The notes below the pieces were generated by a model. The model saw nothing but the letters and a program-made list of their open reading frames with translations, was not told the origin of the DNA and searched no databases. A program made the translations under genes and the position numbers. This document shows, in pieces, positions 8,896-55,303 of a stretch of DNA of 64,000 bases; the stretch's first letter is position 1; every line of letters starts with the position of its first letter. The stretch lies in assembly GCF_029167365.1 (NCBI RefSeq), contig NZ_JARFNM010000001.1, forward strand, positions 1,418,001-1,482,000. Reading direction: 5' to 3'. The DNA is from Amygdalobacter nucleatus. GTDB lineage: Bacteria > Bacillota > Clostridia > Saccharofermentanales > Fastidiosipilaceae.

Positions 8896-9187
8896 CAAAT
8901 TCCTCTTTCCGTAAACTATTTACCCTTTTTTCAAGCATAACAAGCAGCAAATACGCTTCACCTTGTGGGCATTTTAGCATATTTAGCAGATTGTGCTCAG
9001 CTATTTTTTAGCTCTAACTCTTAGATTTAAGCAGTCACATGCTGAATCAACCACCCAATATATTGTCGATTTCTGACTCAAATCACTAATTAACTACTAT
9101 GACTTGTGCTTTGTGATACACGTTATTTCGTCTAAGTGCCTCCATCTCTACAATGAAATTATTGAATCTAATTGGAGGTTACAAATT

Positions 9188-10558
9188 ATGAAATATGCTA
9201 TTGTTGGTACTTCACATACTGGTTATGAGGCTGTCCAAACTATTTTAGAGCGTGAGCCAAAGGCTGAAATTGAATTGTTCGAAGCTGGCAAAACGGCCTC
9301 TTTCCTATCATGTGGTATGCAATCTTACCTCGAAAACGAATCAGATTGTCTATGCAAAATCCATTATGCCAATGCCGAATCTTACATTAAGCAAGGCGTT
9401 CATATGCATTTGAACAGTGAGGTAAACAATTTCAACGCTGATAAGCACGAATTAACTTATGTTGATGCTCAGGGAGATCATGTCATGAACTATGACAAGT
9501 TGATTTTGGGCGTAGGTGCTATTCCAACTCCACTTAATTGCCCTGGCAAAGAATTAAATAATATTCTCTATATGCGCGGCGAAGTTTGGGGTGGCAAAAT
9601 CAAGGACAGAATGCCAGCTAGCTCCAAAGTTGTTGTAATTGGCGGCGGTTACATTGGCATTGAAGCTGCTGAAGCTTTCGCTAAGGCTGGTAAAGAAGTG
9701 ACTGTTTTGGATTTCCAAACAAGCATTTTGCCAACTTACCTCGATAAAGAATTTACCGATATTCTCGTTAAGCATGCCAGTGAGCACAATATGACATTCC
9801 ATGGTGGCGAAGCTGTCAAAGAGTTTAAGGGCGAGAATGGCAACGTTTCAGCTGTCGTTACAGATAAAAACACTTATGCTTGTGATACTGTTGTTATTGC
9901 TATCGGTGTAAAGCCAAATACAGCTTGGTTAAATGGTCTTGTTGAGTTAGACAAGCGTGGTTTCATTTTGACTGATGAATATCAACAGACATCTGCTAAG
10001 GATGTCTATGCAGCTGGTGATGCTACTTACATTCAATATGCTCCAAATGGCAAAAAAGCTGCTATCGCACTCGCAACCAATGCTAGACGACAAGGTATTG
10101 TAGCTGCCCGCAATGCTATGGGTGACAAGGTGCAAGTGCAACCTGTTTCTGGCACATCTGCTTTGGCTTTGTTCGATTATCATTTTGCTTGTTCGGGTAT
10201 CAGTTCTGCTAACTCAGCTAGCTATGATGGCAAGGTCGAAAGTGTTTATCTTGAGCAAAGAGTCAGACCAACTTTCTTTACAGAGCCTGATACAGCTACC
10301 AACACTTTGTACAGCAAGATTTTCTTCGATGCTGAAACTAAGGTTATTTTGGGTGCGCAATTCATGTCCAAGTTGGATATTACGCAATATGCTAATATCA
10401 TCTCTTTGGCCATCTACAACAAAAACACTTTGGAGGAATTAGGTCAACAGGATTTCTTCTTCCAACCTGAATATGTTGGTCCATGGCACGCTATCTCTGC
10501 TATTTCTTTGAAAGCTCTCGGTCATACCTACGGTTCTGACAAGATGTTGTTCATGTAG
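9188..10558 (+). CDS. nox: NADH oxidase, water-forming type (FAD-dependent, Cys42 family)
   Basis: 456 residues. The true start is the ATG at 9188: GGAGG lies 9 bases upstream, and the FAD fold MKYAIVGTSHTGYEA begins at once. His10 and the redox-active Cys42 (FLSCGMQSYL) are those of streptococcal and lactobacillal NADH oxidase/peroxidase. The NADH-binding motif VVVIGGGYIGIEAAEAFA and the second FAD motif VYAAGDAT follow, then a C-terminal dimerisation domain. It would reduce O2 to water while recycling NAD+, useful for an anaerobe or microaerophile. A NADH peroxidase or CoA-disulfide reductase specificity cannot be fully excluded. Monocistronic, with a terminator downstream. Confidence 0.9.
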   Translation: MKYAIVGTSHTGYEAVQTILEREPKAEIELFEAGKTASFLSCGMQSYLENESDCLCKIHYANAESYIKQGVHMHLNSEVNNFNADKHELTYVDAQGDHVMNYDKLILGVGAIPTPLNCPGKELNNILYMRGEVWGGKIKDRMPASSKVVVIGGGYIGIEAAEAFAKAGKEVTVLDFQTSILPTYLDKEFTDILVKHASEHNMTFHGGEAVKEFKGENGNVSAVVTDKNTYACDTVVIAIGVKPNTAWLNGLVELDKRGFILTDEYQQTSAKDVYAAGDATYIQYAPNGKKAAIALATNARRQGIVAARNAMGDKVQVQPVSGTSALALFDYHFACSGISSANSASYDGKVESVYLEQRVRPTFFTEPDTATNTLYSKIFFDAETKVILGAQFMSKLDITQYANIISLAIYNKNTLEELGQQDFFFQPEYVGPWHAISAISLKALGHTYGSDKMLFM

Positions 10559-41254: not shown

Positions 41255-41428
41255 CTACGCCCTAAGTGCTGTAATTGGCACAATATAAATCCCTGTTTTG
41301 GGTTCTTGCAAAGCAGCATCTAAATGGCCGACTATAACGCACATAAAAGCTGGTTTCTTAGCCACATGCTTATAAAAAGTACTTAAGCTATCTAATGCAT
41401 CTTGAATGCTACCATCAATAAGCTGCCA
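41255..41428 (-). pseudogene. C-terminal gene fragment, possibly of a DUF4143 ATPase
   Basis: The minus strand ends at a TAG at 41255 after IDGSIQDALDSLSTFYKHVA, KKPAFMCVIVGHLDAALQ and TGIYIVPITALRA. The pattern (parallel strand, then GIYIVPI) resembles the C-terminal end of some DUF4143/AAA ATPases, but the identification is weak. It has no start and is fused out of frame to the 3' scrap of hsdM next to it. Confidence 0.4.
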
Positions 41429-41449
41429 CTACCACAAGCACAAGTTGGG
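41419..41449 (-). pseudogene. hsdM: hsdM 3' scrap on the far side of the inserted elements
   Basis: Reading minus from the att core, the codons give (D)PTCACGSGSLLM, the SAM-binding motif of HsdM (normally DPTCGSGSLL) with a two-codon TGTGCT duplication. Joining this to the 5' hsdM part at 54474 across the shared GA restores GTG TAT GAC CCA ACT TGT (VYDPTC) without any gap. Homology ends within about 30 bases, so the rest of hsdM was deleted. Confidence 0.75.
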
Positions 41450-41494
41450 TCTAGTTTCATTACGTGTTGGATACAATGAAACCTTGACCTTGAA

Positions 41495-41590
41495 CTCTGA
41501 AACTTTTTGTCTGTACTTTGAAACTTTAATTTTGAACTCTGAAACTATTTATAGGAATCTGAAACTTTGACTTTCCATTCTGAGTTTTAA
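41495..41590. repeat. TCTGAAAC array, right end of element 2
   Basis: Five copies of (T/C)TCTGAAACT-like sequence start near 41495, 41516, 41538, 41558 and 41578, about 20-22 bp apart, i.e. two helical turns. The array sits just inside the att end. Related arrays occur at 42666 and 45369. Confidence 0.75.
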
Positions 41591-41651
41591 CCTAACACTT
41601 TTAAACTTCACGCTTGGTATTTCTTTTACTATTTACGGCTTATATCTGAGA

Positions 41652-42557
41652 CTATATTTCCAGCAAATCATAGAAAGTCCGCTCATCAATAATTTCTATA
41701 TCTTGACCCTCAAGTTTTAACTTTTCTGCTTTCTTATGCTTTGAAGACTTCTCACCTTTAAGAATTGCATTGTAGTCATTGTCACCAAGGATCAGATAGT
41801 TAGTCTGCTTATTCACGCTATTATCTAAGATACCGCCGAGATTCACTACAAGCTGCATCGCATCTTTTCGAAGCATTTTCTCAAGCTTACCGGTGAAAAC
41901 AACATGTCGATTATAGAAAAATCCATCTTCATCAATGACCGCTTCAGTAGGCTTAATGGCTTTGATATCTATTCCTTTGCCGCCGTGGCTTTCGCCGGTG
42001 ATCCATAAATCTTCAATAGCGAGATTCTTCTCCGCCATACTAGCTTTTACGGCATCATATAATTCTTTCGTTGATACGCAGTCCGATAAAGCACGATGTT
42101 CGTTATTATGTAAGCCTAAGTAGTCAGTTAAATCGGAGAGTCTGTGATGCTTCAACTCAGGATACAGTTTACGAGCAAATTGCATCGTATCCATATACTG
42201 ATTAGACAATTGTTCCTTAAAACCCTCATTCAAAAAACGCATATCAAAAGAGGTGTTATGACCAAGAATAATGTCATCACCTATGAACGAGAGTACATCC
42301 GTTTTAACACTGTCTATAGATGGCATACCTTCCAGCATGTCATTAGTTATTCCTGTTAATGCTGTAATAAAACCATCTACTTCTGTACTCGGTTTAATCA
42401 ACTTATCATAACGGTCTACTATTTCATTATTCCTGACCTTTAAAATACCTATCTCAATAATTTCATCGTAATACGCAGATAAGCCGGTCGTTTCGGTATC
42501 TAGCACACAGTAATCATCAATGAGTTGCTTAGTGTAATTTGAGTTTGAATTGGACAT
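41652..42557 (-). CDS. DnaQ-like 3'-5' exonuclease with C-terminal BRCT domain
   Basis: 301 residues. The DEDDh exonuclease domain (about 14-170) has Asp20 and Glu22 (VLDTETTGL), Asp105 (HNTSFDMRFL), His154 and Asp159 (HRALSDC), a full catalytic set. A BRCT domain (about 215-301, HVVFTGKLEKMLRKDAMQLV) ends the protein. Such proteins are stand-alone proofreading/repair exonucleases in Bacillota and often occur on mobile DNA. GAAGGAGG precedes the ATG. It lies between two TCTGAAAC arrays as cargo of element 2. Confidence 0.92.
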   Translation of the reverse strand: MSNSNSNYTKQLIDDYCVLDTETTGLSAYYDEIIEIGILKVRNNEIVDRYDKLIKPSTEVDGFITALTGITNDMLEGMPSIDSVKTDVLSFIGDDIILGHNTSFDMRFLNEGFKEQLSNQYMDTMQFARKLYPELKHHRLSDLTDYLGLHNNEHRALSDCVSTKELYDAVKASMAEKNLAIEDLWITGESHGGKGIDIKAIKPTEAVIDEDGFFYNRHVVFTGKLEKMLRKDAMQLVVNLGGILDNSVNKQTNYLILGDNDYNAILKGEKSSKHKKAEKLKLEGQDIEIIDERTFYDLLEI

Positions 42558-42665
42558 AAAAGCACCTCCTTCATCTATTGAAATGAGCTTTTACAAATTT
42601 ATCTTCTAATACTCATTATATCTTGAAAGCTAAGTGCCTTAAACATAAAAACAGGTCGATTGTAA

Positions 42666-42696
42666 CTCTGAAACTATTGCTTTGTACTCTGAAACT
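42666..42696. repeat. TCTGAAAC repeat pair upstream of the exonuclease gene
   Basis: Two copies 21 bp apart (42666, 42687). The stretch TAACTCTGAAACTATTGCT is also found at about 45366 in element 1. It may be a regulatory array shared by the two elements. Confidence 0.65.
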
Positions 42697-42853
42697 TTAG
42701 AGCTTGGAGCACCATACTGTTTTTTATTGAGAATAAGAAAGCTTATATCTCAAATAACACTCAAAAGATAACATACAAAAAGATGGCTCTAACATATCGC
42801 TAGAGCCATCTTCTAATAACCAATGCTCGTTACTTAAAACAAGCAGTGCCTAG

Positions 42854-44629
42854 TTACTTGTTTTCTTCCATCATTTTCTTCTTACGAAGAATTGCAAGTC
42901 CTGCAATCGAGAAACCTATAGCTGTGAGCAAGCCTGCAAACGATGCTGATTCACCAGTCTTAGAAATCATGCCAATATGCTTTTTAGGCTGTGGCTGAGG
43001 AGCTGGTGTCTGAGGATTTGGCTTGAGTTCCGGAGTCGGTGTAGGTGGGTTTGGAGTTGGATCCGGATTTGGTACAGGATCTTTCGTGTAAATAGCGTAT
43101 ACAGTCATATCACCATTAACTACGCTTGCTCCCGTAAATTCAGTACCTTTACCGTCTTCCTTCGTATTCCATTCCTTGAATGTATAACCAGCCTTCGTTG
43201 GTTTCTTCGGCATAGACTCATTAGTCAACGCATCAGTATCAATTGCCTTGCCTTTTTCTACTTTCCTTGTAGCATGAATCTTATCGCCATCGACGAAGTT
43301 AACGTACAAATAAGGGTTCTTATAGTTTATGTCATTGTTATTAAGCAAGCTCTTTCGAAAATTACTGGCTTGTGCGGCATCAGAGTCGCCACTAAATAAA
43401 AGCTGAGTATAGTCAGCATAATTTTCTGGTGCCGTATATTTACCGGAGATAGCCCGATTTCCTTTGAACAAAGTTTTCTCATCTGTGCTTATATTCTTAT
43501 ATGCCTCTGTGTCCTTTGTAGGATCGTTATTATCTTCTTTATAGGTGTAAATTGCACCACCACTAGTAGCTACATTGTTAGTAAATTGCGATTCACTTAT
43601 ATCCGCTCCACCATTATCCTTATTAAGGTATAAAGCACCTCCTGCAGCTATGGCACTATTAGCATCAAATTTCGATTTACTTATCGTCAGTTTCTTTACA
43701 CTAAAAATCGCTCCGCCCCATTTAGCCTGATTCTTGCTAAACGTAGTATTTTTTATTGTTAGTTCTTGTGATGAATAAATCGCTCCGCCCGTGCTTGCTT
43801 CATTTTCTTCAAATCTAGCATTCTCGATAGTAGCAGGATTCGTTTCACCGATCCAGATAGCACCACCGACTTTTTTGTCAGGAACTTTGTTTCCCTTAAA
43901 TGTGCCACCAGTAATAGTTAATTGACCAAAAGAAGCTATCGCTCCACCACCAGAAGTGGTACTGCTATTATTTTCAAAAAGACCACCTTTGATATTGAGA
44001 GTAGAGCCTTGTCTAGATTGAATGACACCACCTTGATTGTGAGATGTATTATTTCTGATCACAGCCTCATCTTCGATCGTTAATGTACCTCCATTAACAT
44101 ATAGTGCTGGACCATCAAAAATTTCAACATCAGAGAAATTTTGAATTATCGCTCCTTTGCCAATAGTGATCTTGCCTCCAGTAAGGGCAGACAAGCACTC
44201 GCTCTCATGAGCTCCGTCAAGTGTTATATTATCAACTGTAATCTCTGCACCTTCTCCGACACCCATAAGCTCTTTCGGACCTTTTCTTGTAAGCTCGTAT
44301 GGTCCACCTTTACCTGAAGTTAGCCTTATTTTATTATTACTTCTGAGATGCATACCTTCGGTTGCTGGAATAACCGTATCTTTATTTACATATACAGTAT
44401 ATAAACTCGTGGCATCGTTTATATCCATATTATTAACACATTCCATAAATGTGTCGTATTCGCCAACAGGCATCTCTTCACTAGAGCCAGCTACTTTTTT
44501 AGTTACTGTAAAAGCTTTAGCGTTGGGTATATCATCAGCCGCAAATACCTGTGTAGTTCCAGCTATTACACCAAACGCTACTAATGTTGCCATCAATAGA
44601 CCCATTGTCTTTTTCAATAATGCTTTCAT
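42854..44629 (-). CDS. Cell-wall-anchored beta-helix adhesin (POMP-like repeats, InlB repeat)
   Basis: 591 residues. Signal peptide 1-30 (TLVAFGVIAGTTQVFA). Residues about 120-370 form right-handed beta-helix/POMP-like repeats with recurring GGAI and FxxN patterns (GGAIWIGETNPATIENARFE, GGAIYSSQELTIKNTTFSKN). An InlB-type repeat follows (GYTFKEWNTKEDGKGTEF), then a Pro-rich wall spanner and a sorting signal ISKTGE, a hydrophobic helix and an RKKK tail. The motif departs from LPxTG at its first two positions. Probably a surface adhesin exported by Sec and fixed by sortase. AAGGAGGA upstream; 5' region has an ATAGGTA/TACCTAT hairpin. Confidence 0.88.
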   Translation of the reverse strand: MKALLKKTMGLLMATLVAFGVIAGTTQVFAADDIPNAKAFTVTKKVAGSSEEMPVGEYDTFMECVNNMDINDATSLYTVYVNKDTVIPATEGMHLRSNNKIRLTSGKGGPYELTRKGPKELMGVGEGAEITVDNITLDGAHESECLSALTGGKITIGKGAIIQNFSDVEIFDGPALYVNGGTLTIEDEAVIRNNTSHNQGGVIQSRQGSTLNIKGGLFENNSSTTSGGGAIASFGQLTITGGTFKGNKVPDKKVGGAIWIGETNPATIENARFEENEASTGGAIYSSQELTIKNTTFSKNQAKWGGAIFSVKKLTISKSKFDANSAIAAGGALYLNKDNGGADISESQFTNNVATSGGAIYTYKEDNNDPTKDTEAYKNISTDEKTLFKGNRAISGKYTAPENYADYTQLLFSGDSDAAQASNFRKSLLNNNDINYKNPYLYVNFVDGDKIHATRKVEKGKAIDTDALTNESMPKKPTKAGYTFKEWNTKEDGKGTEFTGASVVNGDMTVYAIYTKDPVPNPDPTPNPPTPTPELKPNPQTPAPQPQPKKHIGMISKTGESASFAGLLTAIGFSIAGLAILRKKKMMEENK

Positions 44630-44900
44630 ATTCTCCTCCTTATCAATCTAATAATGTTCCTTTTATTGTTTTTAAAAATTGCATAAAAATAGGTAGGAAT
44701 ACATACCTATCCATCAGGTATATATTTCTGCCAATTAAAAAATCCTACGTGAAAATGGACAGATCTATGCTGTCTGTCTATCTGTCATGGATTTTGTTAG
44801 TTTTTTCATGGCTTGTCAACCTTGTATGCTAATTTTTCTTGTGCTAATTATATAAGAAAAATCTATATTGACTAGCCTTTATATATTGTATATCCGTTAT

Positions 44901-45068
44901 TTACTTGTCTATTTTCATTACGATCCCATCAAGGAAGATAAACTCAACCTTTCCATCGTGACGCACGGTTAGATAGTCAACCAGGCCTTTGAAATGCAGA
45001 TAGTCTAAAAGTAGTTTACAAAGGCTATAATCCATCTCGTCTTGCAGTATTTTCTTTACTTCTCGCAT
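44901..45068 (-). CDS. 55-residue fusion of recombinase-associated small protein and recombinase tail
   Basis: The first 30 residues (MREVKKILQDEMDYSLCKLL to FKGLVD) match the small ORF at 53971-54180, and the rest (YLTVRHDGKVEFIFLDG) matches the recombinase C-terminus encoded at about 52470-52540. The two parts join at an ATGGTTGAY-like microhomology (here CTGGTTGAC), so a deletion removed the whole recombinase gene between but kept the frame. AAGGAGG precedes the ATG. Whether the peptide is made or useful is unknown; it is mainly a scar of integrase loss. Confidence 0.7.
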   Translation of the reverse strand: MREVKKILQDEMDYSLCKLLLDYLHFKGLVDYLTVRHDGKVEFIFLDGIVMKIDK

Positions 45069-45302
45069 TGACTCATCCTCCTTGTAGCCTATACATCACT
45101 CAGACTCCGTAATAAGTCCAGTATTGATAAACACCCTAAGGGCTAAAAGAACACCCCCTTGTCTAAATAGCACACACCCCTAAAAGCAAAAAAGTCTAGC
45201 GTCAATTCACACCAGACTTTCATTCACGTTCTTCTGCTTAGTCAGCCTACAATAAACCTTTATTTACAGTGTTCTTTTAAGCAACAGCTAATAGGCTTGG
45301 TA

Positions 45303-45350
45303 TCATTTTCTGTAAAGTTATCTCTAGTTTCATTACGTGTTGGATACAGT
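45303..45350. other. attP-type junction between elements 1 and 2
   Basis: On the minus strand the end CGTAATGAAACTA of element 1 meets the beginning GATAACTTTACAG of element 2 through a GA dinucleotide at 45323-45324. This is the junction expected for a circularised element (attP) or for two elements in tandem. Confidence 0.65.
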
Positions 45351-45368
45351 AAAACTTTGCCTTTATAA

Positions 45369-45420
45369 CTCTGAAACTATTGCTCTATACTCTGAAACTT
45401 TAACATTGTACTCTGAAATC
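45369..45420. repeat. TCTGAAAC array, right end of element 1
   Basis: Three copies near 45369, 45390 and 45412 (21-22 bp apart), preceded by a diverged AAAACTTTG copy. Same position relative to the att end as the array in element 2. Confidence 0.75.
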
Positions 45421-45425
45421 TTATT

Positions 45426-45824
45426 TTAGGCAGCAGATGACGTACGTGAACAGCAGCAGTATTTTCACAGCCATACGAAGGCGCACCCCAGACTGGCTCG
45501 TAGATTGCAACTAGGCTGTAGACACGTCCAGGATGCTTCATGAGAAAATGGCAGGTGTCATATTCTTTGGTCGCAAGCGCAACCGCTTCGCCATCTACGG
45601 TAACTTTTTTTGCGGCATCATCGAGTTTGATACCACCAAGCACAAGTGTTCCGGCAGTCTCCTCGTCCTGAGGATTGGCGGCACCGAGCCGCTTATATCG
45701 GCGCAGCGCACTGCGTACGCGTGCCATCATAGGCACAAAGCAGCTCATAGTCGGGATTTTGCAGATAAATCTTGAGTGCACCAACAATATCACGGTCGTC
45801 ATCTACTAGAAGAATGCGATACAT
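45426..45824 (-). pseudogene. OmpR-family response regulator with internal deletion
   Basis: From the ATG at 45824 the receiver start MYRILLVDDDRDIVGALKIY is clear (acidic DDD pocket), followed by LQNPDYELLCAYDG. The sequence then jumps, out of frame, to ARVRSALRRYKRLG and a winged-helix DNA-binding domain (LVLGGIKLDDAAKKVTVDGE, LATKEYD, VHVRHLLPKI). The phosphorylation site and most of the receiver are gone, and the end is cut by the repeat array. Base composition is GC-richer than host genes, suggesting import. No kinase gene remains. Confidence 0.75.
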
Positions 45825-45946
45825 TTGAACTCTTTCTCACATAGACCCTTGCATTTCAATACAATGTTTCGTCAGGGCAGGTGGCATACGAACCAGAGCA
45901 TTTTCTCACGAGGATATATGAGGTGGCAGACGGCAAGTTCTGCTTA

Positions 45947-46822
45947 CTAGACTTGACTTTTGCGTAGGACCCAGAGATTTTAAATCTGGCCCTCAAGCTC
46001 ATAGTAGGTCAAAATCTTATTGGAGCGTCCTCTGCTATTGAGATCACGCACAACGATATCCTCTTCCCTAAGACCAGCGAGAACAATAAAATGACCAGTC
46101 TTGGTAAAATACCCTGACCCATGATGCAAATAATGGGATTGCCTGCTTCGAGGTCTGTCTTAACACGTTTCTCTTGCAGGGGAATCTCGGTCGCATCTAA
46201 ACCTAATTTTCGACCGCCCTAAGATATGAGCGCCCAGGCACTACCCTCTCCATCGACTGCATAACCCTGAGCTGTTGCAAACTCGCCCATCGCAAGAGGC
46301 GACATCGATGCGTCCACCGTAAGATAAATATAGGCCATCGATAAACAGCTCGGACCACAACCAGAAGGCGCAAAGTACTGACCCGCATAGTTGGTATAGC
46401 CCCAGCGCTCATCCCACAGCAAGAAGAGCGGAACCATGGGACTGTGAGCGTATTCAGAAAGATCAATAGTTGGATGATCGTTGTGACGCTTGTCAAAATC
46501 CAAAACAAACTGGCGTGCTTCGGGATTGCGTTCAAAGAGACTGACAAGCTCGGTAGGAGTGATCTTGGAAGGGCGTTGCCATGACAGCAAGCCCTGTTGA
46601 AAACAGATAGCCCCAAGGGACGTAAGCGTAAGAAAAAAGAATGATAATGCGCTTGAACCAGCCGCGATGACGATGTTGGCGATGCGCTCGGCGCTGATAC
46701 GACCGAAGTGTTGAAGCACTACGGCTATAGCGAGTTACGCCGCCCCTATAGACAACATCATTATGAGACGCAGGCCCTTCGCAGATAACTTCCATGCGCC
46801 CTCCTTTCCTGACTTGCGGCAT
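45947..46822 (-). pseudogene. C39-like peptidase (Peptidase_C39_2) membrane protein, several lesions
   Basis: The N-terminal basic region (SQRRAHRQHRHRG-like) and one membrane helix are in one frame (46532-46822), and the rest in another (46219-46719). That frame has the catalytic block FLLWDERWGYTNYAGQYF, SGCGPSCLSMAYIYLTVD and AMGEFATAQGYAVDGEGSAW, with Cys in GCGPSC. A TAG follows WALIS; homology goes on as GGRKLGLDATEIPL, AGNPIICIMGQG, a further indel, then TGHFIVLAGLREEDIVVRDL with the catalytic His, and a TAA before the last residues. Cysteine peptidase-like surface proteins of Actinobacteria and Bacillota look like this. Dead gene. Confidence 0.75.
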
Positions 46823-47280
46823 TTCATGACAGGGTTGTATTACTTAAGCGCATTGTCTTCTGACCGCCCTTTAAGGAACCAGAAGCAAAATTCGAAAGAT
46901 TTCCTTAACTTCAGGCATGCAAATTGGTCTGGCAAATCAAAGGACCACTTTGCAAAGACATTGAGCCCTATGCTCAGACAACGTCAAAAGAATTATTACA
47001 AAACACATCATCTAGCAGGTATAAATCAGCTTTGGATCTATACTTTGTGGTTTGTGACGACTGCGGCAGGGGAGCCACGAGCAAAAGTGCTGGAATGATT
47101 ACAAGGTCAAACGGTGAAATTGCCAAATATGACGATGAAGGCGGGAGCTTCAAAGCAAACGACCTTTCGATGCTTGAGGCTGGCCTTCACAAAGTATTTT
47201 GGGCGCCCAAAGGATGCAGAGGATGCATATCGTATGGGGCTGCATCGATGATCTTATGCCACCCCAGAAACAGAAAGACG
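46823..47280. other. Unassigned cargo DNA between C39 remnant and adhesin
   Basis: About 460 bases with no gene I can identify. The plus strand has overlapping partial frames (for example SKSAGMITRSNGEIAKYDDE, 47070-47140) that look protein-like but have no start, no recognised family and no support from a ribosome binding site. I treat it as decayed coding sequence. Confidence 0.3.
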
Positions 47281-47317
47281 AAAAAACGGTATAGCCATAT
47301 TTCACGACTATACCGTA
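47281..47317 (-). terminator. Terminator of the SHIRT adhesin gene
   Basis: A 9-bp stem ACGGTATAG / CTATACCGT, followed on the minus strand by TTTTTTCG, about 40 bases after the adhesin stop. Confidence 0.85.
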
Positions 47318-47357
47318 ATGTTCGGGATTACAAACTCCCTATGTTGCACTGCCTAAC

Positions 47358-50300
47358 CTATTGGTTGTTATTTTTCTTAAGCCCCAGTGCTAGTGCTGAA
47401 AGAGCAGATCCAATCAGTGCCATGACACCTACATAGAATGGTACGCTCGTTGCTTCGCCAGTTTTTAGTATAACATGTGCAGAAGAATTTGTCCCTTTAT
47501 TTCCTGTATTTCCTGTATTTCCTGTATTTCCTGTATTTCCATTTATAGAACCTGGCTGTGCTGTTCCTGGGTTCATTGGATGCTCCGGTTTGGCCGGTTC
47601 TTCGGTGAAGGTCCAAGAACCTGTAATGCTTGCGTTCTTGTCACCCATGATGCCGTTATTCGGATCGGTCCAACCGCTGAAGGTCCACGTACCTTTCTTA
47701 CCGTCCTTCTCACCTTTTACCGTGTCGTTCTTCTTGTAGGTGGTATCTACGGTGTAGTGATCACCAGCATAGTAACTATCACTATTCTTCGGGAGCTCTT
47801 TTCCTGCCGGTGCGTCCTTACCCCAGTTGTAGACAACCTGATACTTGTTAGCTTCGGTGAAGGTCCAAGAACCTGTAATGCTTGCGTTCTTGTCACCCAT
47901 GGTGCCGTTATTCAGATCGGTCCAACCGCTGAAGGTCCACGTACCTTTCTTACCGTCCTTCTCACCTTTTACCGTGTCGTTCTTCTTGTAGGTAGTATCT
48001 ACGGTGTAGTGATCACCAGCATAGTAACTATCACTATTCTTCGGGAGCTCTTTTCCTGCCGGTGCGTCCTTACCCCAGTTGTAGACAACCTGATACTTGT
48101 TAGCTTCGGTGAAGGTCCAAGAACCTGTAATGCTTGCGTTCTTGTCACCCATGGTGCCGTTATTCGGATCGTTCCAACCGCTGAAGGTCCACGTACCTTT
48201 CTTACCGTCCTTCTCACCTTTTACCGTGTCGTTCTTCTTGTAGGTGGTATCTACGGTGTAGTGATCACCAGCATAGTAACTATCACTATTCTTCGGGAGC
48301 TCTTTTCCTGCCGGTGCGTCCTTACCCCAGTTGTAGACAACCTGATACTTGTTAGCTTCGGTGAAGGTCCAAGAACCTGTAATGCTTGCGTTCTTGTCAC
48401 CCATGGTGCCGTTATTCAGATCGGTCCAACCGCTGAAGGTCCACGTACCTTTCTTACCGTCCTTCTCACCTTTTACCGTGTCGTTCTTCTTGTAGGTAGT
48501 ATCTACGGTGTAGTGATCACCAGCATAGTAACTATCACTATTCTTCGGGAGCTCTTTTCCTGCCGGTGCGTCCTTACCCCAGTCGTAGGTCACTGTGTAT
48601 GTAGGGAGTTCATACACAACGGCTATTTCATGGTTTTTATCGAGATTCGTAAAGGTATAGCTATTTGGATATTTAGATATATCCATTTCCTTGGCATCAA
48701 CGGTTACGCTCCTTAGCTTGTAACCATCCTTTGGTGCATAGTTTATGGTCTTATTGTCTCCCTTATATGCATCGCAGCTCGGATCAATGGTTCCGTTTGT
48801 TACGGATGTAGTGATTTTTAGCTTGACCCGGCTCTCCTTCCAAATTGCTGTGACTTGCGTATCTTTGTCAACCATAATCTCAGTGCCTGGCGCTAGTTTT
48901 TTGCCATTCACTTCCCAAGTGTCAAATTCCTGATTTTCAGGAGCAGTGAAAGCATTACTCAAAATCTTGTACTTTGAGCCCTTGTTTAGCTTCTTGTCTT
49001 TCATTTCGCCGGTGCCGCCGTTACCGTCGTAGCTAATAGTGGCAGTTTCGAGAGCCTTGCTTGCCAGATCCGATTCAAGCGGGGCTTCTTCAGGAATTAA
49101 TCCACCATTATCTTTTGCTTTTGCCGTGATGGTGGCTCCAACTGCTAACTCTTTAATCTCCAGGGTTACTACCCCAGTATTTGCATCAACGGTCGCACCA
49201 TCCGATGTCCACGTGGTCTTACCTGTGGTAGCGTCTACGGTTCGCGTTGCGGTGACGGTTTTCTCCGCGCCCGATTCGTCCTTATACGTAATCGTGTAGG
49301 ACGCCAAGTCGGTATCATCACCGGGATCTTTATAAGCCGGTGGGGTAATAGTTACTTCACCCTTATCCGTGTCTACTGCAATCACCGGAGATTTAGGTGC
49401 GATATTTTTTACCAGATCTTTAGCAGGGAATTTAGTGACTTTGGCCCCATCGTTTAGTTTATAGGTTCCATCGGCATTTTTTCGATATACCGGATTGCCG
49501 CCATCCCAATCAACTTCCACATCATTAGGACTGATTATTGTAACGTTTCCGTCTTTATCAAACTCGATAAACGCAGGATCGTCTATAAATCCAGTTCCAT
49601 CGGGGAGTTTAGATACGCCATGTACCGTATTGGCATCTCGAATAGCTTTATCGATGGCTTTTTTATCGTCATCAGTTAGTTTTTTGGGATCTCTCACGGC
49701 GACCTTTTTGGGAGTTGTTATTACCGGCTCAGACTTCGCGCAAGAACGGAATTTATGTGGCTCTTTGACAATAATACCGAACTTTTTTCCGAGTTCTAAA
49801 TCATCATCATTGATTGAGAACGTAACTTTTGTGCCGTCAACGGATACTGTTTGAGACATCTCTCGCCATGTCGATTTGTCCACTATACATTTTCCACCTT
49901 CACAGAAACTATTGTCCTCGTTATCCGTGAAATTGTTGACAAAATAAAATTTCGTACCTGCGGCAACCTCTTCAGCAAATGTAACGATAATCTGTCCATC
50001 TGTTACCTGGACTTTTTGTATTGTCGGAGCAGCAGATGTTTCCGTTACCGTTTTGATTTTTAGGTCCGGAGCTTCAATTTTTCCGGAGGTTGATCTATCG
50101 GTATAGGTCACTTCATAGTAGGCATGATCCGTGCCATCGATAGAAAATGTAACACTCTTAATTTTATTCGCAATTTCCGGATTGGCGTTCTTCAACAGTT
50201 CAGTAGCTTCTGCTTTCTCATCGTCATTTACTTGGTTGGAGTTCGTGTGTTCAATCCAGATTTCGCCGGCGGGCATTGTGAGCGTTGTCTGACCTGCTAT

Positions 50301-50864
50301 TGATAGCTCAGCATTTGCAGTTACTTCTGGTGATTTGTCTTCATCTAATTGTTGATAGACAGTAACTGTATCTCCTTCTTCAACTTTTGTTCCAGCAGGT
50401 AAATCTACTTTCCAGGTATTTCCTCTTTTAGGGGTATAGGAAAGAGTGGCTTTAACAGTGCCGTCTTTAGCCTTTAATGTTACATGGACTGTTGCTATTA
50501 CAATCTTTTTATTAACCTTAGCTTTGTGTACCTTACCGCCGGAAATGGTTGTGGCGTCGCAAAAGACTTTGTTAATGGTCGGTGCCGGTATAGCAGCACC
50601 CACGGGTTGACCAACAATCTCTGGCCCGATCTCTAGATCCTCGCCCTGTTCCTCGTTGGATTTGATACTTGATGGTTCTTCCTTTACAGGAGTGACAACT
50701 TGCGGTTCAGATTGAGGTCCGTATTGCGAGTTTTTGGCATACGTAATTGGTGTCCATGACATAGATAAAATCATCAAGGACGCCAACGCGAGCGAAAAAA
50801 ACCTAATAACATTTTTATGTTTTATCTGCTTTTTTATTATCATAATTTTTATCCATCTACGCAT
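47358..50864 (-). CDS. Giant cell-wall-anchored adhesin with four SHIRT-like repeats
   Basis: 1168 residues. Signal peptide about 1-43 (SLALASLMILSMSWTPITYA). A long N-terminal region includes Ig-like and cell-wall-protein segments (DPGDDTDLASYTITYKDESG), then an InlB-type repeat (ATISYDGNGGTGEMKDKK). Four 84-residue repeats follow (VVYNWGKDAPAGKELPKNSD, GKKGTWTFSGW), resembling SHIRT domains that extend rod-like adhesins. A short NTG repeat and the sorting end ILKTGE, hydrophobic helix and LKKNNNQ tail anchor it. As in the other adhesin the usual LP of LPxTG is replaced. GGAAAA lies upstream of the ATG; codon 8 is an alternative start. Cargo of element 1. Confidence 0.9.
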   Translation of the reverse strand: MRRWIKIMIIKKQIKHKNVIRFFSLALASLMILSMSWTPITYAKNSQYGPQSEPQVVTPVKEEPSSIKSNEEQGEDLEIGPEIVGQPVGAAIPAPTINKVFCDATTISGGKVHKAKVNKKIVIATVHVTLKAKDGTVKATLSYTPKRGNTWKVDLPAGTKVEEGDTVTVYQQLDEDKSPEVTANAELSIAGQTTLTMPAGEIWIEHTNSNQVNDDEKAEATELLKNANPEIANKIKSVTFSIDGTDHAYYEVTYTDRSTSGKIEAPDLKIKTVTETSAAPTIQKVQVTDGQIIVTFAEEVAAGTKFYFVNNFTDNEDNSFCEGGKCIVDKSTWREMSQTVSVDGTKVTFSINDDDLELGKKFGIIVKEPHKFRSCAKSEPVITTPKKVAVRDPKKLTDDDKKAIDKAIRDANTVHGVSKLPDGTGFIDDPAFIEFDKDGNVTIISPNDVEVDWDGGNPVYRKNADGTYKLNDGAKVTKFPAKDLVKNIAPKSPVIAVDTDKGEVTITPPAYKDPGDDTDLASYTITYKDESGAEKTVTATRTVDATTGKTTWTSDGATVDANTGVVTLEIKELAVGATITAKAKDNGGLIPEEAPLESDLASKALETATISYDGNGGTGEMKDKKLNKGSKYKILSNAFTAPENQEFDTWEVNGKKLAPGTEIMVDKDTQVTAIWKESRVKLKITTSVTNGTIDPSCDAYKGDNKTINYAPKDGYKLRSVTVDAKEMDISKYPNSYTFTNLDKNHEIAVVYELPTYTVTYDWGKDAPAGKELPKNSDSYYAGDHYTVDTTYKKNDTVKGEKDGKKGTWTFSGWTDLNNGTMGDKNASITGSWTFTEANKYQVVYNWGKDAPAGKELPKNSDSYYAGDHYTVDTTYKKNDTVKGEKDGKKGTWTFSGWNDPNNGTMGDKNASITGSWTFTEANKYQVVYNWGKDAPAGKELPKNSDSYYAGDHYTVDTTYKKNDTVKGEKDGKKGTWTFSGWTDLNNGTMGDKNASITGSWTFTEANKYQVVYNWGKDAPAGKELPKNSDSYYAGDHYTVDTTYKKNDTVKGEKDGKKGTWTFSGWTDPNNGIMGDKNASITGSWTFTEEPAKPEHPMNPGTAQPGSINGNTGNTGNTGNTGNKGTNSSAHVILKTGEATSVPFYVGVMALIGSALSALALGLKKNNNQ
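47602..48592 (-). repeat. Four near-identical 252-bp coding repeats
   Basis: The 84-codon SHIRT units repeat with period 252 bp; copies differ at only a few positions (for example TDLNNG versus NDPNNG, GIMG versus GTMG). Such identity allows copy-number change by recombination and can collapse in assemblies. Confidence 0.9.
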
Positions 50865-51239
50865 GGCGTTGGATTTTCCTTTCTTTGACGTCCCCTATCA
50901 ATTTGAATTGTTTACATCTTTCATTACGGGTGAATAAGTCATCCAAATCTCGCAATTCATAATCATGTTACATACTACCACATCTCAATTGTAGCCTCAA
51001 CTTTATTTTTTACCACAATAGTGCACTTGATTCTTTGCCATTTTGGCTCTTATTGACATTTGGGGCTGCGGTGGTTCTTCTGGAGCATCCAACATTGCCT
51101 TTAAACCGAAGCTTGGTATCGAAACTGTCCACGACGGCCTCCAGGTGAGCTACGGCTGTGCGTGCTCCGTCAAGAACAGGACGGTGAAACGATCAGCCAA
51201 GTTTACAGAAGCGAGGATTAATAGACGAACAAGCAGCAA

Positions 51240-51470
51240 TTGGCATCAAAGATATGGGAATCCGCCAACAAGATGCGCTCGAAAATCGAGGCAAACGAAT
51301 ACAAGGACTACATCCTGGGCTTCATCTACGAGCACCTTATCAGCAACTTCGCCGCCAACGCAGGCAAGAAAGCAGGCGAGTTCTACACGCCGCACGAGGT
51401 GTCCATGCTCATGAGCGAGATAGTTTCGTGGCACCTGCCCGGACGCAAGAACATCACAATCTACAATAAA
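51240..51470 (+). pseudogene. hsdM: HsdM fragment from a second, GC-richer source, internally deleted
   Basis: Plus strand reads MASKIWESANKMRSKIEANE and YKDYILGFI (HsdM N-terminus), then directly YEHLISNFAANAGKKAGEFY, TPHEVSMLMSEIV and NITIYN (target/SAM region), skipping roughly 250 residues. It stops at the residue where DPTSGSGSLL should follow, then becomes type III Res sequence in the same frame. Base composition is high compared with the host. The 200 bases before it show no identifiable gene. Confidence 0.7.
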
Positions 51471-52370
51471 ATCATTTACAACTATCCACTGGAACGTTTC
51501 CGTGCGAGTGGCTACACGAAAGATTTTCAAAACTTTGCAACCGATACGAACCTCCGGGGTCGCACACTTATAGCTCTTATTCTTAGCGAATATCGTCGTT
51601 ATCTTTTTGCGGACTTAAAACTGAATATTAAACCAGTTATTATGCTTAAATCGCAAAAGATTAAAGAGTCCGAAGCTTTCCATGACGAGTTTTTCAAAAA
51701 ATTAGAGGAACTCACGAGCTATAAGATTAAAGCTTTGCAAAATGCTAACATTCCGCTTCTTTCTAAGGCTATTGCTTATTTTGGGAAAAAGATGACACTC
51801 TTGAAAACCTGGAGCATAGTCTTAAGAACTCTTTTTCTGAAGGTAACACCATCATCATGAATGGATCTTCAGACGGTAATGACGCTAACAAAATTAAAGT
51901 GAACTCACTCGAAGATAAAGATAATCCATTCGCCTTATTCTTGCTGTTGATATGCTTAATGAAGACTGGTATGTATTAAACCTTTTTGATATTGTGCGCC
52001 TTTATGATAGTCATCAAGGTAGCGGTAAAGCTGGAAAAATCGGTTCGTATACAATTAAAGAGGCTCGACTGATTGGTCGTGGGGCACGCTATTGTCCGTT
52101 TGTATATGAAAGCGACAAAGACCTTAAATATAAGCGTAAGTTTGATGGTGACCTTACGAACGATTATCGTATTCTGGAAAACTATGTTTTTCCATAGTCT
52201 GAACGATTCACGTTATATTGCTGAGTTGAAACAAGCCCTTATTGCAACTGGACTTCAGCCTAAAAATCCAATTACTCGTGAATATCGACTAAAAGAAGAA
52301 TTTAAGACTGGGGGTGCGGACATCTTTTTAGACAGCCACACCCCCTTCTCTCCATCGATACCCAACTAAT
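51471..52370 (+). pseudogene. Type III restriction enzyme (Res) helicase fragment, frameshifted
   Basis: Three frames give the C-terminal helicase half of a type III Res subunit: NYPLERFRASGYTKDFQNFA, ATDTNLRGRTLIALILSEYR, IKPVIMLKSQKIKESEAFHD; then LEHSLKNSFSEGNTIIMNGS, LAVDMLNEDWYVLNLFDIVR, and EARLIGRGARYCPF (motif VI, normally QLIGRGAR), ending YRLKEEFKTGG. At least three indels. The Walker A half and endonuclease domain are missing, and no mod gene is near. Confidence 0.75.
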
Positions 52371-52398
52371 TTTATTATACTCTTTTAACAGCAAAAAA

Positions 52399-52430
52399 GC
52401 ACGTCAGCGACCTGCTGATGTGCCTTTATT
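52399..52430 (-). terminator. Hairpin after the serine recombinase gene
   Basis: GCACGTCAGC pairs with GCTGATGTGC around a 5-base loop. T-runs flank it on both sides (TTTATTTT on plus, TTTTTTGC on minus), so it may end both the recombinase and the res transcripts. Confidence 0.7.
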
Positions 52431-52455
52431 TTGCCCTGTAACATTTCCTATAACC

Positions 52456-54011
52456 TTAACACTTTAGTTCTGTTTTGCTCCCATCAAGGAAGGTAAACTC
52501 AACCTTTCCATCTTGATGCACGGTTAGATAGTCAACCATGCTCAGCCAGACGTTTTCATCGAACACAGTTAACAAGTTCTGCTTTTTCAAATCCTCGATA
52601 AAATATTCAACCTCATCACGTCTTGCTTGTCCACAATTATAGCTTTGACTTCTTTAAGCCTTGATTCTACAGTATTAAACCTGTTCACTAGACTCGTATA
52701 TTTTTTCTCATACTCATCTTGGTCCTGCAATTTCCGTGCGTTTTCATTGATGCAGTTGTTGACCTTGTCAGCTACGATGTTGAGTTCTTCTTCAAGTTTC
52801 AGTTGTTCATTTTCAAGACTTGAAGTATCAAAAACAGTTTTTACCATCTCTTTATGCGTTGCGATGATTTCTTGTTTATCTTTAACAAGCATATTTACAC
52901 CTTTAATAAACAGCGTTTGAATCTCTTCTTCTTTTAAGTGTGGAGTGGTGCAGTGTTCTTCAAACTTGTGATTATATTGCCAGATTCTTGTACGGTACTT
53001 ATCTGTTGAATGCCATGTTTTAGAACCATACCATGAACCACAATCGCCACATTTAATCTTGCTTGAATATATGCTGACGCTTGAAATGCGATTTTTACCG
53101 CCCTTTCTTAGCGCTAAAAGTTTCTGCACCCTGTCAAAGGTAGACGGTGGAATAATGGCCTCATGGTTTCCTGTCACGTAGTATTGAGGGATTTCTCCCT
53201 CGTTCTTTTTCTTCTCCTTGGTTAGAAAGTCCACCGTGAAGCTCTTCTGTAAGAGGGCATCGCCTTTATACTTCTCATTGCTTAAGATGGCATGGACTGT
53301 TCCTGCCGACCATTTTTTCTTGCCTCCTGGTGTCGGTATACTGTCAGCAGTAAGTGCTTTGGCTATCCCAAAAGCTGAGTAACCTTGTAAAAACATGCGA
53401 TAAATCTTTTTAACCGTTACGGCTTGCTCTTTGTTAACGATGAGGTTTCCATCCTCACCTCGATCATAGCCTAAAAATCGTTCGAAAGGCACGGTAACCT
53501 TACCGTCTGCGAATCTTTTCCTTTGTCCCCATGTGCAGTTTTCAGAGATCGAGCGTGATTCTTCTTGCGCCAAGCTCGACATTAAGGTAAGAACGAACTC
53601 GCTTTTAGTATCAAGCGTATGAATGTTTTCTTTTTGAAAGAATACGCCGATTCCTCTTCCTTTAAGCTTTCTAATAGTTGAAAGACTGTCTACCGTGTTT
53701 CTGGCAAAACGGCTGATTGATTTGGTAACGATTAAATCAACTTTTCCTTGCAAAGCATCTTCTATCAGACGATTAAAACCATCTCTATTTTTATGCCTTA
53801 GACCTGAAATACCATCATCGTAATATAGACCAGCAAACTGCCAATCGTTTCGCTCTTTAATATACTTTGTAAAGTAAGCCTTTTGTGCCTCTAAGCTATT
53901 ATGCTGTTCATCTTTTTCAGTTGAAACGCGGGCATAAGCTGCAACTCTTATCTTTTTAATTTTCGTCAGTTTAAAAATTCTTGGTGTCAGTTTTACTACT
54001 TCTTTTACCAT
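52456..54011 (-). pseudogene. Large serine recombinase (integrase) with one frameshift near the C-terminus
   Basis: Start ATG 54011 (GGAGG upstream). Catalytic Ser30 lies in VAAYARVSTEKDEQ; the resolvase domain runs to about 155 (TKSISRFARNTVDSL), followed by the Recombinase domain (VKKIYRMFLQGYSAFGIAKA), a zinc ribbon (IKCGDCGSWYGSK and later EEHCTTPH), and a coiled-coil. The main frame ends at 52587 after AIIVDKQDVMRLNIL, but the next frame continues ARRDEVEYFIEDLKKQNLLT and MVDYLTVHQDGKVEFTFLDG to a TAA at 52456. One indel near 52610 explains this; about 517 residues otherwise. If only the tail is lost the enzyme might still work. It is the likely integrase of both elements. Confidence 0.88.
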
Positions 54012-54180
54012 AAATTCCCTCCAGCATAAGAGTTGGAGGATCATAGTGATCTTTTATCTGAGTAACTGATAACTGCCATGATTTGTCATCAACCATGCCT
54101 TTGAAATGCAAATAGTCTAAAAGTAGTTTACAAAGACTGTAATCCATCTCGTCTTGCAGTATTTTCTTTGCTTCTCGCAT
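53971..54180 (-). CDS. Small recombinase-associated protein
   Basis: 69 residues (MREAKKILQDEMDYSLCKLL, SVTQIKDHYDPPTLMLEGIY), AAGGAGG upstream. Its 3' end overlaps the recombinase start by about 40 bases. Similar small genes precede large serine recombinases in Bacillota elements (SHOCT-like); whether it is a directionality factor is unknown. A diverged copy is fused into the ORF at 44901. Confidence 0.7.
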   Translation of the reverse strand: MREAKKILQDEMDYSLCKLLLDYLHFKGMVDDKSWQLSVTQIKDHYDPPTLMLEGIYGKRSSKTDTKNF

Positions 54181-54473
54181 TGACTCATCCTCCTTGTAGC
54201 CTATACATCACTCAACCTCCGGAATAAGTCAAGCACTTATAGACCCCATAAGAAGTAAAAGAACACTCCCTGAATCAAAAACACACACCCTTGTCTAAAT
54301 CGCACAGCCCTAAAAGCAAAAAAGACACCCCCTAAAAAGGAAAAATCCAGCGTCAATTCACGCCAGACTTTCATTCACGTTCTTCTGTTTCACAAGCCTA
54401 CAATAAATCCTTATTTACAGTGTTCTTTTAAGCAACAGCCAATAGGCTTGGTATCATTTCCTGTAAAGTTATC

Positions 54474-55177
54474 TCATACACCTTGTTAATATTCGTTTTA
54501 CCGACCATTACCAGCCTAGCTAACAGCTTGGAAACTGTCTGTGGTGTAAAGAATTCACCGCCAGATTTACCAGCATTACTTGCGTAATTGGAAATCAAAT
54601 ATTCATAAGCATCACCGAAAGCATCAATATCGTTATCTTTGAAATCGTCAAAATTGATACTAGCTATACCAGTTAGTATATCAGTCAGCCGTTTGTGCTT
54701 TTCTTCTACTGTTCCACCTAAACGATTGCTTTTTGTATCAATATCCTCGAACAGCCCCTTAATATCATTTTCAGATTTAAAGCCCACAGCACTGCCCTCA
54801 ATAGCTTTAAATATTTTGTCTAGATCTGTATTAAGGTTTTCGTTATCTTTGGCAGTTTTAACCACATTTTGAAACAATTGGCTCGGTAATATGAAAAAGC
54901 CTTTAGCGTCTACCGTATCAGGGCGAAAATCACAATCAGCTTCTTCATCTGAAATTTCAGCATAATCAAAGTCTACGTCACCAGCTTCACGCTCAGCTTG
55001 ATTGAAAAATTCGGTAATATTCTCTGAAATAAAGCGATAGAACAGAATGCCTAAAACATATTACTTAAAATCCAATCCATCTACTGCGCCACGTACATCA
55101 TCAGCAATTGCCCAGATTTTTCTATGTAATTCTGCTCTTTGTGCTGCTTCATTATTACTATTTGTTAATTCTGCCAT
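54474..55177 (-). pseudogene. hsdM: hsdM 5' half, type I DNA methyltransferase, split by elements
   Basis: ATG 55177 with AAGGAG upstream. The HsdM N-terminal domain reads RAELHRKIWAIADDVRGAVD, a TAA at 55061-55063 in place of a sense codon ([18 protein letters not shown]), then [40 protein letters not shown] and [15 protein letters not shown], ending NINKVY. There the frame enters element 1 at the GA core. The expected next residues DPTC lie at 41449 across both elements. HsdM would modify DNA as part of a type I R-M system; no hsdS or hsdR remains in the window. Dead by stop and by insertion. Confidence 0.88.
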
Positions 55178-55303
55178 ACTCCTTACCTCTCCACATTGCT
55201 CATATTCCAAAACTGCTAATTCAAAATTGGCGACCTACAAAATACTTATAAAAGCATTTTAACTAAGCAGAAGTAAAATAGCCAGTTACAAGCTCGCTCT
55301 CTC

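Follow-up and report, generated by a model that had tools for sequence, protein, structure and literature searches.

A tandem island in hsdM

The window (the whole 64,000-nucleotide stretch of Amygdalobacter nucleatus DNA that was analysed) carries an island at 41452-54475, within hsdM, that consists of two head-to-tail units with an attP-like R|L site between them (Table 1). Element 1 extends from 54475 to 45325 and element 2 from 45324 to 41452. The L ends start GAGATAACTTTACAG and the R ends end CACGTAATGAAACTA, with a GA core common to both, and joining the flanks across the island restores the hsdM motif (...NKVYDPTCACGSGS...). The integrase of element 1 is a large serine recombinase (LSR). 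Element 2 keeps both of its ends, at 45324 and 41452, the left one being an attP-like R|L site owing to the tandem arrangement. Its integration gene is lost; the last codons of the LSR alone remain, inside a 55-codon reading frame that we call the fusion ORF.

Table 1. Features of the hsdM island and of the related unit at locus L097.
Feature	Position	Strand	Remarks
hsdM, stub of 3' side	41392..41451	-	DPTCACGSGSLL...
Element 2 R end	41452..41544	-	attR CTA-GA-CCCAACTTGTG
Element 2 cargo	42854..44629	-	591-aa surface protein; beta-helix / Chlam_PMP repeats; KTGES near C-terminus
Leader of surface-protein gene	44640..44923	-	also adjoins LSR tails in L030, L103, L068, L069
Fusion ORF	44901..45068	-	55 codons: 1-28 leader ORF, then shared repeat, then LSR tail
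Fusion junction	44977..44986	-	shared 10-bp word, here GCCTGGTTGA
Element 2 L end	45172..45324	-
Element 1 R end	45325..45418	-	abuts element 2 L end; attP-like junction CTA-GA-GATAAC
Element 1 cargo	47358..50864	-	1168-aa surface protein; four SHIRT domains, aRib
Native LSR tail	52456..52640	-	out of frame in element 1
Repeat in LSR tail of element 1	52532..52541	-	GCATGGTTGA, 10 bp
Element 1 LSR	52587..54044	-	Resolvase + Recombinase + Zn ribbon; PHROG 95; frameshifted near end
Element 1 leader ORF	53971..54180	-	69 aa; overlaps LSR start
Repeat in leader ORF of element 1	54089..54098	-	GCATGGTTGA, 10 bp
Element 1 L end	54290..54475	-	attL at 54475 (TAT-GA-GATAAC), after hsdM 5' part
hsdM, 5' part	54476..55179	-	interrupted gene, with in-frame stop
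L097 unit	L end 8872, R end to 10231		order: mod 5' part (Pfam TypeIII_RM_meth), L end, scar ORF, DUF7010 protein, R end, mod 3' part
L097 scar ORF	9105-9272		55 aa

The same termini occur at other loci. Scanning the loci for the R terminus with at most three mismatches gave 16 matches, five of which abut an L end (window 45323, L067, L073, L099, L103) and four a DNA-methyltransferase motif, namely the DPT..GSGS of hsdM (window 41450), DPPYNTG (L069, L097) and DLAAGSGNF (L117). Two abut an LSR tail (L073, L098) and five lie elsewhere (L068, L069 at 10506, L104, L118, L119). At window 54475 and in L036, L066 and L097 the L end is preceded by the 5' portion of a methyltransferase gene; a further L end, apart from these four, lies in G426 (L100). 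At the same tolerance, the R-terminus pattern was present in 4 of 130 genomes in the family of G401 and in none of 296 in the family of G399. In the two genomes where an R end abuts an LSR tail, which are of different families, the join is at CTA-GA-TGGGAGC (L073 11345-11370, L098 474-499), as if the tail had served there as a secondary target site.

The fusion ORF joins parts of two genes

The fusion ORF encodes a peptide of 55 residues (MREVKK...FKGLVDYLTV...MKIDK). Aligned with element 1, its region splits cleanly into two pieces: 44900-44986 corresponds to 52463-52541 at the LSR tail, and 44977-45324 to 54089-54475, across the leader ORF that precedes the LSR. The pieces overlap by 10 bp at a shared word, which reads GCATGGTTGA exactly at both element 1 sites, 1,557 bp apart, and GCCTGGTTGA, with one base changed, in element 2. 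A preliminary description of this DNA had proposed this alignment and explained the in-frame fusion by a deletion between short direct repeats that removed the integrase, and the two-piece split bears it out. The peptides that it quoted are present as well, although WLSMVDYLTV, assigned there to the recombinase, falls outside the 485-aa recombinase frame, as a frameshift precedes it.

When deletion ends are drawn at random inside both stretches, a microhomology of at least 10 bp arises in about 7 of 100,000 draws (~7e-5). The leader ORF and the LSR share no exact repeat longer than GCATGGTTGA, and shuffled sequences shared a word of at least 10 bp in 102 of 300 trials, so that the evidence resides in the junction falling on the repeat and not in the existence of the repeat.

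Each half of the fusion ORF has a native context elsewhere. The tail (...WLSMVDYLTV..DGK.EFTFLDG..) ends intact LSRs in Peptostreptococcaceae bacterium pGA-8 (L015), in Peptoniphilus asaccharolyticus (L018) and in three IMG/VR contigs (L030, L031, L034); all five LSRs measured read in frame into it, with 494 residues from YARVST to the stop. In L015, L018 and L030-L034 the place upstream of the tail-bearing LSR is taken by a recombinase-like reading frame instead of the leader ORF. The latter stands ahead of LSRs with different C-termini in L022, L036 and L071, where it runs on past the junction (MVDDKSW / LIDEEKW), and in Parvimonas micra (L019) it precedes an LSR with a damaged start. Of the units found, only element 1, a mosaic, combines the leader ORF with this tail, and no intact unit does. 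Since the pieces are native to separate genes, the 55-codon ORF joins parts of two genes, and its structure, as read from these alignments, is that of a deletion scar.

The integrase of element 1

The LSR of element 1 exceeds the cut-off for all three of its Pfam domains (PF00239, PF07508, PF13408), and searches of Pfam, NCBIfam and PHROGs placed its leader ORF in no family. The 485-aa LSR frame holds 449 residues from YARVST against 494 in its relatives, 45 short, and the rest of the tail sits in another frame. The gene is also a mosaic, with an L036-like 5' part, an L030-like 3' part and a mixed zone between them: in 75-bp windows, identity is 92-98% to L036 from 54200 to 53750 and 92-98% to L030 from 53075 to 52475. 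The frameshift could be an assembly error, and the shortened LSR may retain part of its activity. Other LSR matches in the same genome reach at most 50% identity which, together with the frameshift, makes a helper in trans within this genome doubtful. A more distant LSR (47%) matches with equal scores at five places on all three contigs of G000 (C1:5798, C1:1579628, C2:4842, C2:16756, C3:4591), either as a multicopy element or as an assembly repeat.

Other copies of the scar

Among the viral contigs, the fusion DNA pattern matched a single contig, the IMG/VR record of L030 and L070. There, an intact LSR and the surface-protein genes that go with it are followed, about 3 kb further downstream, by a truncated scar ORF (L070; ...LHFKGMVDYLTVHQDGK...) without its start region. 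A 691-bp element 2 query found matches in 7 of the 391 class genomes, of which four, from outside its own family, had short ones of 37-57 bp. It also matched 2 of 140 genomes of the G403 family and 7 of 130 of the G401 family, and among the latter only G561 matched across the fusion. In G561, a Peptoniphilus-family genome, a type III mod gene is interrupted at L097 by an integrase-free unit of about 1.36 kb that is flanked by exact attL and attR, and joining its flanks restores an in-frame mod (...LIYIDPPYNTG...). A search of G561 for a cognate integrase found none, the LSRs there having at most 45% identity to the query.

Read simply, the L097 unit would have moved without an integrase of its own; alternatively, the same deletion may have occurred there after insertion. 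No derived base unites the three fusions, and their tails differ, that of element 2 being L068-like and that of L070 element 1-like. These bases and tails mildly favour recurrence or reshuffling, the sites being too few to tell one fusion origin from several. If the deletion did recur, L097 may have lost its integrase after insertion and would then tell us little about movement in trans. Our searches, built on this fusion, under-represent any other deletion products of these genes; LSRs broken in other ways occur in L014, L019, L067, L068 and L101.

These loci bear on several further statements of the preliminary description. The fusion is not private to element 2, since L070 and L097 share its junction. 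The view that element 2 is locked in place is called into question by L097, an integrase-less scar unit with exact attL and attR in mod, with the reservation that the integrase may have been lost in situ there; that element 1 might supply the integrase in trans is doubtful, its LSR having lost the last ~45 codons to the frameshift. Conservation of the 55-residue protein away from recombinases had been named as the mark of a real gene family. L097 does carry the protein without an adjacent recombinase, but the protein is still a chimera, because its C-terminal half descends from an LSR tail: the halves trace to the leader ORF and the LSR tail, and no family independent of LSR genes emerged in Pfam, NCBIfam or PHROGs.

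Cargo and relatives of the units

Over 1.9 kb, the surface-protein region of element 2 shares 91% DNA identity with Atopobium deltae DNF00019 (L020); directly upstream of the matching region, that genome has a decayed LSR of the same type. Similar units, comprising the leader, a surface protein and an R end, occur in L069, L073, L099, L103 and L104. The unit family is thus common to the family of this host, one Peptoniphilus-family genome and an actinobacterium.

The surface-protein leader contains GACA runs in L030 (5634-5697, 16 units), L103 (7869-7924, 14), L069 (11250-11305, 14), L073 (9972-9983, 3) and L098 (241-328, 22), and the window contains none of at least three units; such a run is a possible phase-variation tract. 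Within element 1, 252-bp tandem repeats at 47600-48588, 98-99% identical, encode SHIRT domains of the 1168-aa protein. The same DUF7010-type membrane protein, its Pfam assignment run on L097 alone, lies beside an R end in four genomes (L097 9416-10045, L117 12412-13032, L118 12000-12584, L119 7241-7792). DNA methyltransferase genes lie directly inside the L end of neighbouring units in L103 (2612-4603, D12 class) and L099 (4162-5226, C5 class), and methylases are thus both targets and cargo.

Origin and coding status of the fusion ORF

A single deletion within an element-1-like parent is not the only way to arrive at the fusion ORF. The leader ORF of an L036-type unit could have been joined to the tail of an L030-type LSR directly, by illegitimate exchange and without a deletion in any single parent. 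Intact LSRs with the leader ORF and those with this tail belong to different lineages, and recombination between the two types is evident in element 1. We nevertheless consider such an exchange rather unlikely, as element 1 shows that parents carrying the two sites in the required order exist, so that one deletion is enough, and the cargo and R end lie downstream in element 2 just as a deletion predicts.

It is also conceivable that the LSR made the fusion itself, by recombining two pseudo-sites with core GA inside GGTTGA. GA is the core used at the mapped ends, the identical junction recurs, and the joining of an R end to an LSR tail in two genomes suggests that tail-internal sites are usable. 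By eye, however, neither site resembles attP or a DP-motif attB except for GA, and GA is found in many 10-bp words, while the junction lies at the longest available repeat, as slippage predicts. Recombination by the LSR thus appears unlikely as the source of the scar.

A different question, which fits a deletion origin too, is whether the fusion ORF has become a selected small protein of integrase-less units, perhaps an accessory recombination factor. It retains the ribosome-binding site of the leader ORF, and both complete copies are open (2/2). Between element 2 and G561, the first part of the ORF has five synonymous changes and one replacement, whereas the repeat and tail have none and six (12 changes in all; Fisher p = 0.015). 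In the unfused pair of element 1 and L036 the first part is similar, however, with four synonymous changes and two replacements, and constraint there may therefore predate the fusion. The excess of replacements in the repeat and tail and the loss of the start region in L070 also speak against a selected protein; intact LSR tails vary in sequence as well, and the 55-aa ORF has no match over the cut-off in Pfam, NCBIfam or PHROGs. We judge a selected function improbable and take the fusion ORF to be a scar that happens to remain open. The lesson is that not every small open ORF close to an integrase need be a gene, since it can be what a deletion left behind.

Finally, the reverse direction, in which an LSR jumped into an ancestral 55-codon gene with GGTTGA as target core, would explain why the 10-bp word is a direct repeat flanking the LSR in element 1 and why the fusion ORF stands in three records, but it is highly improbable and we reject it, because the tail belongs to intact LSRs that are preceded by another recombinase and not by the leader ORF, the leader ORF continues naturally beyond the junction in L022, L036 and L071, before other LSRs, and the mapped element ends lie elsewhere.

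Discussion

We propose a model where element 2 derives by deletion from an element-1-like parent, with its ends kept and the ORF as the scar, forming a CIME-like unit that could be moved by a related LSR, and we give this reading a probability of roughly 70%. The parent would have been ordered like element 1, with an L end, a leader ORF, an LSR ending in ...MVDYLTV..., cargo and an R end. About 1.55 kb would have been lost between the two 10-bp repeats, most likely through slippage or single-strand annealing at the repeat, with one copy retained and the frame matched by chance. From the termini, the LSR is predicted to recombine attP with the GAY codon of DNA-methyltransferase motifs (DP..GSGS, DPPYNTG), with GA as the core. 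Element 2 would then be cis-mobilizable, moved by a related LSR of another element or leaving together with element 1, and other scar units may have moved likewise.

In a broader context, it is tempting to speculate that integrase-less scar units form a non-autonomous serine-recombinase cassette family, whose members enter DNA-methyltransferase genes with an integrase acting in trans and take surface proteins from one phylum to another. The minimal unit of such a family would comprise an L end, the scar ORF, one cargo gene and an R end. We regard this as a tentative extension of the deletion model, possible but doubtful. If movement without an own integrase does occur, the arrival of one recombinase could be enough to spread surface-protein genes through unrelated anaerobes and to inactivate restriction-modification genes in the process.

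Literature searches found no work on serine recombinases of Mageeibacillus or on vaginal serine-recombinase cassettes that transfer surface proteins horizontally, and the papers that matched non-autonomous large serine recombinase elements moved in trans were, by title and abstract, on other subjects. The nearest serine-recombinase analogue is provided by the SCC / ECC cassette chromosomes, which the cited extract describes as using CcrAB serine recombinases with rlmH as the target and as highly variable in cargo (PMC6222049). Pseudo-SCC elements without ccr are integrase-less relatives comparable to those seen here. The analogy fails, however, on the target and on the Ccr scores: SCC / ECC insert at the rlmH 3' end, whereas the units here target DNA-methyltransferase motifs (hsdM, mod), and the element 1 LSR scores far under the cut-offs of the CcrB, CcrA and CcrC models (CcrB, 110 bits versus 900).

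Streptococcal ICEs offer a second comparison. The portion of text cited reports serine integrase triplets that insert into hsdM, mutT or traG with direct repeats of 2-8 bp (PMC4701971), and the clustering of serine recombinases, the hsdM insertion and a 2-bp core are shared with our units. Unlike these triplets, element 1 has a leader ORF and not a neighbouring recombinase, and integrase-less derivatives exist here.

Classic CIMEs are generally associated with tyrosine integrases. The units described here differ from them in having a serine integrase, a size of 1.4-4 kb and one surface or membrane protein gene as cargo, as well as a recurring scar ORF and a type III mod gene among the targets. 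The likeness lies in the architecture: the CIMEs and accretion tandems of streptococcal ICEs, in the part of the source cited, have lost the integrase, kept attL and attR and come to share their target gene with a related element as a tandem (PMC5704250), as element 2 has. On its sequence, element 2 is probably best filed as CIME-like, short of a proven CIME.
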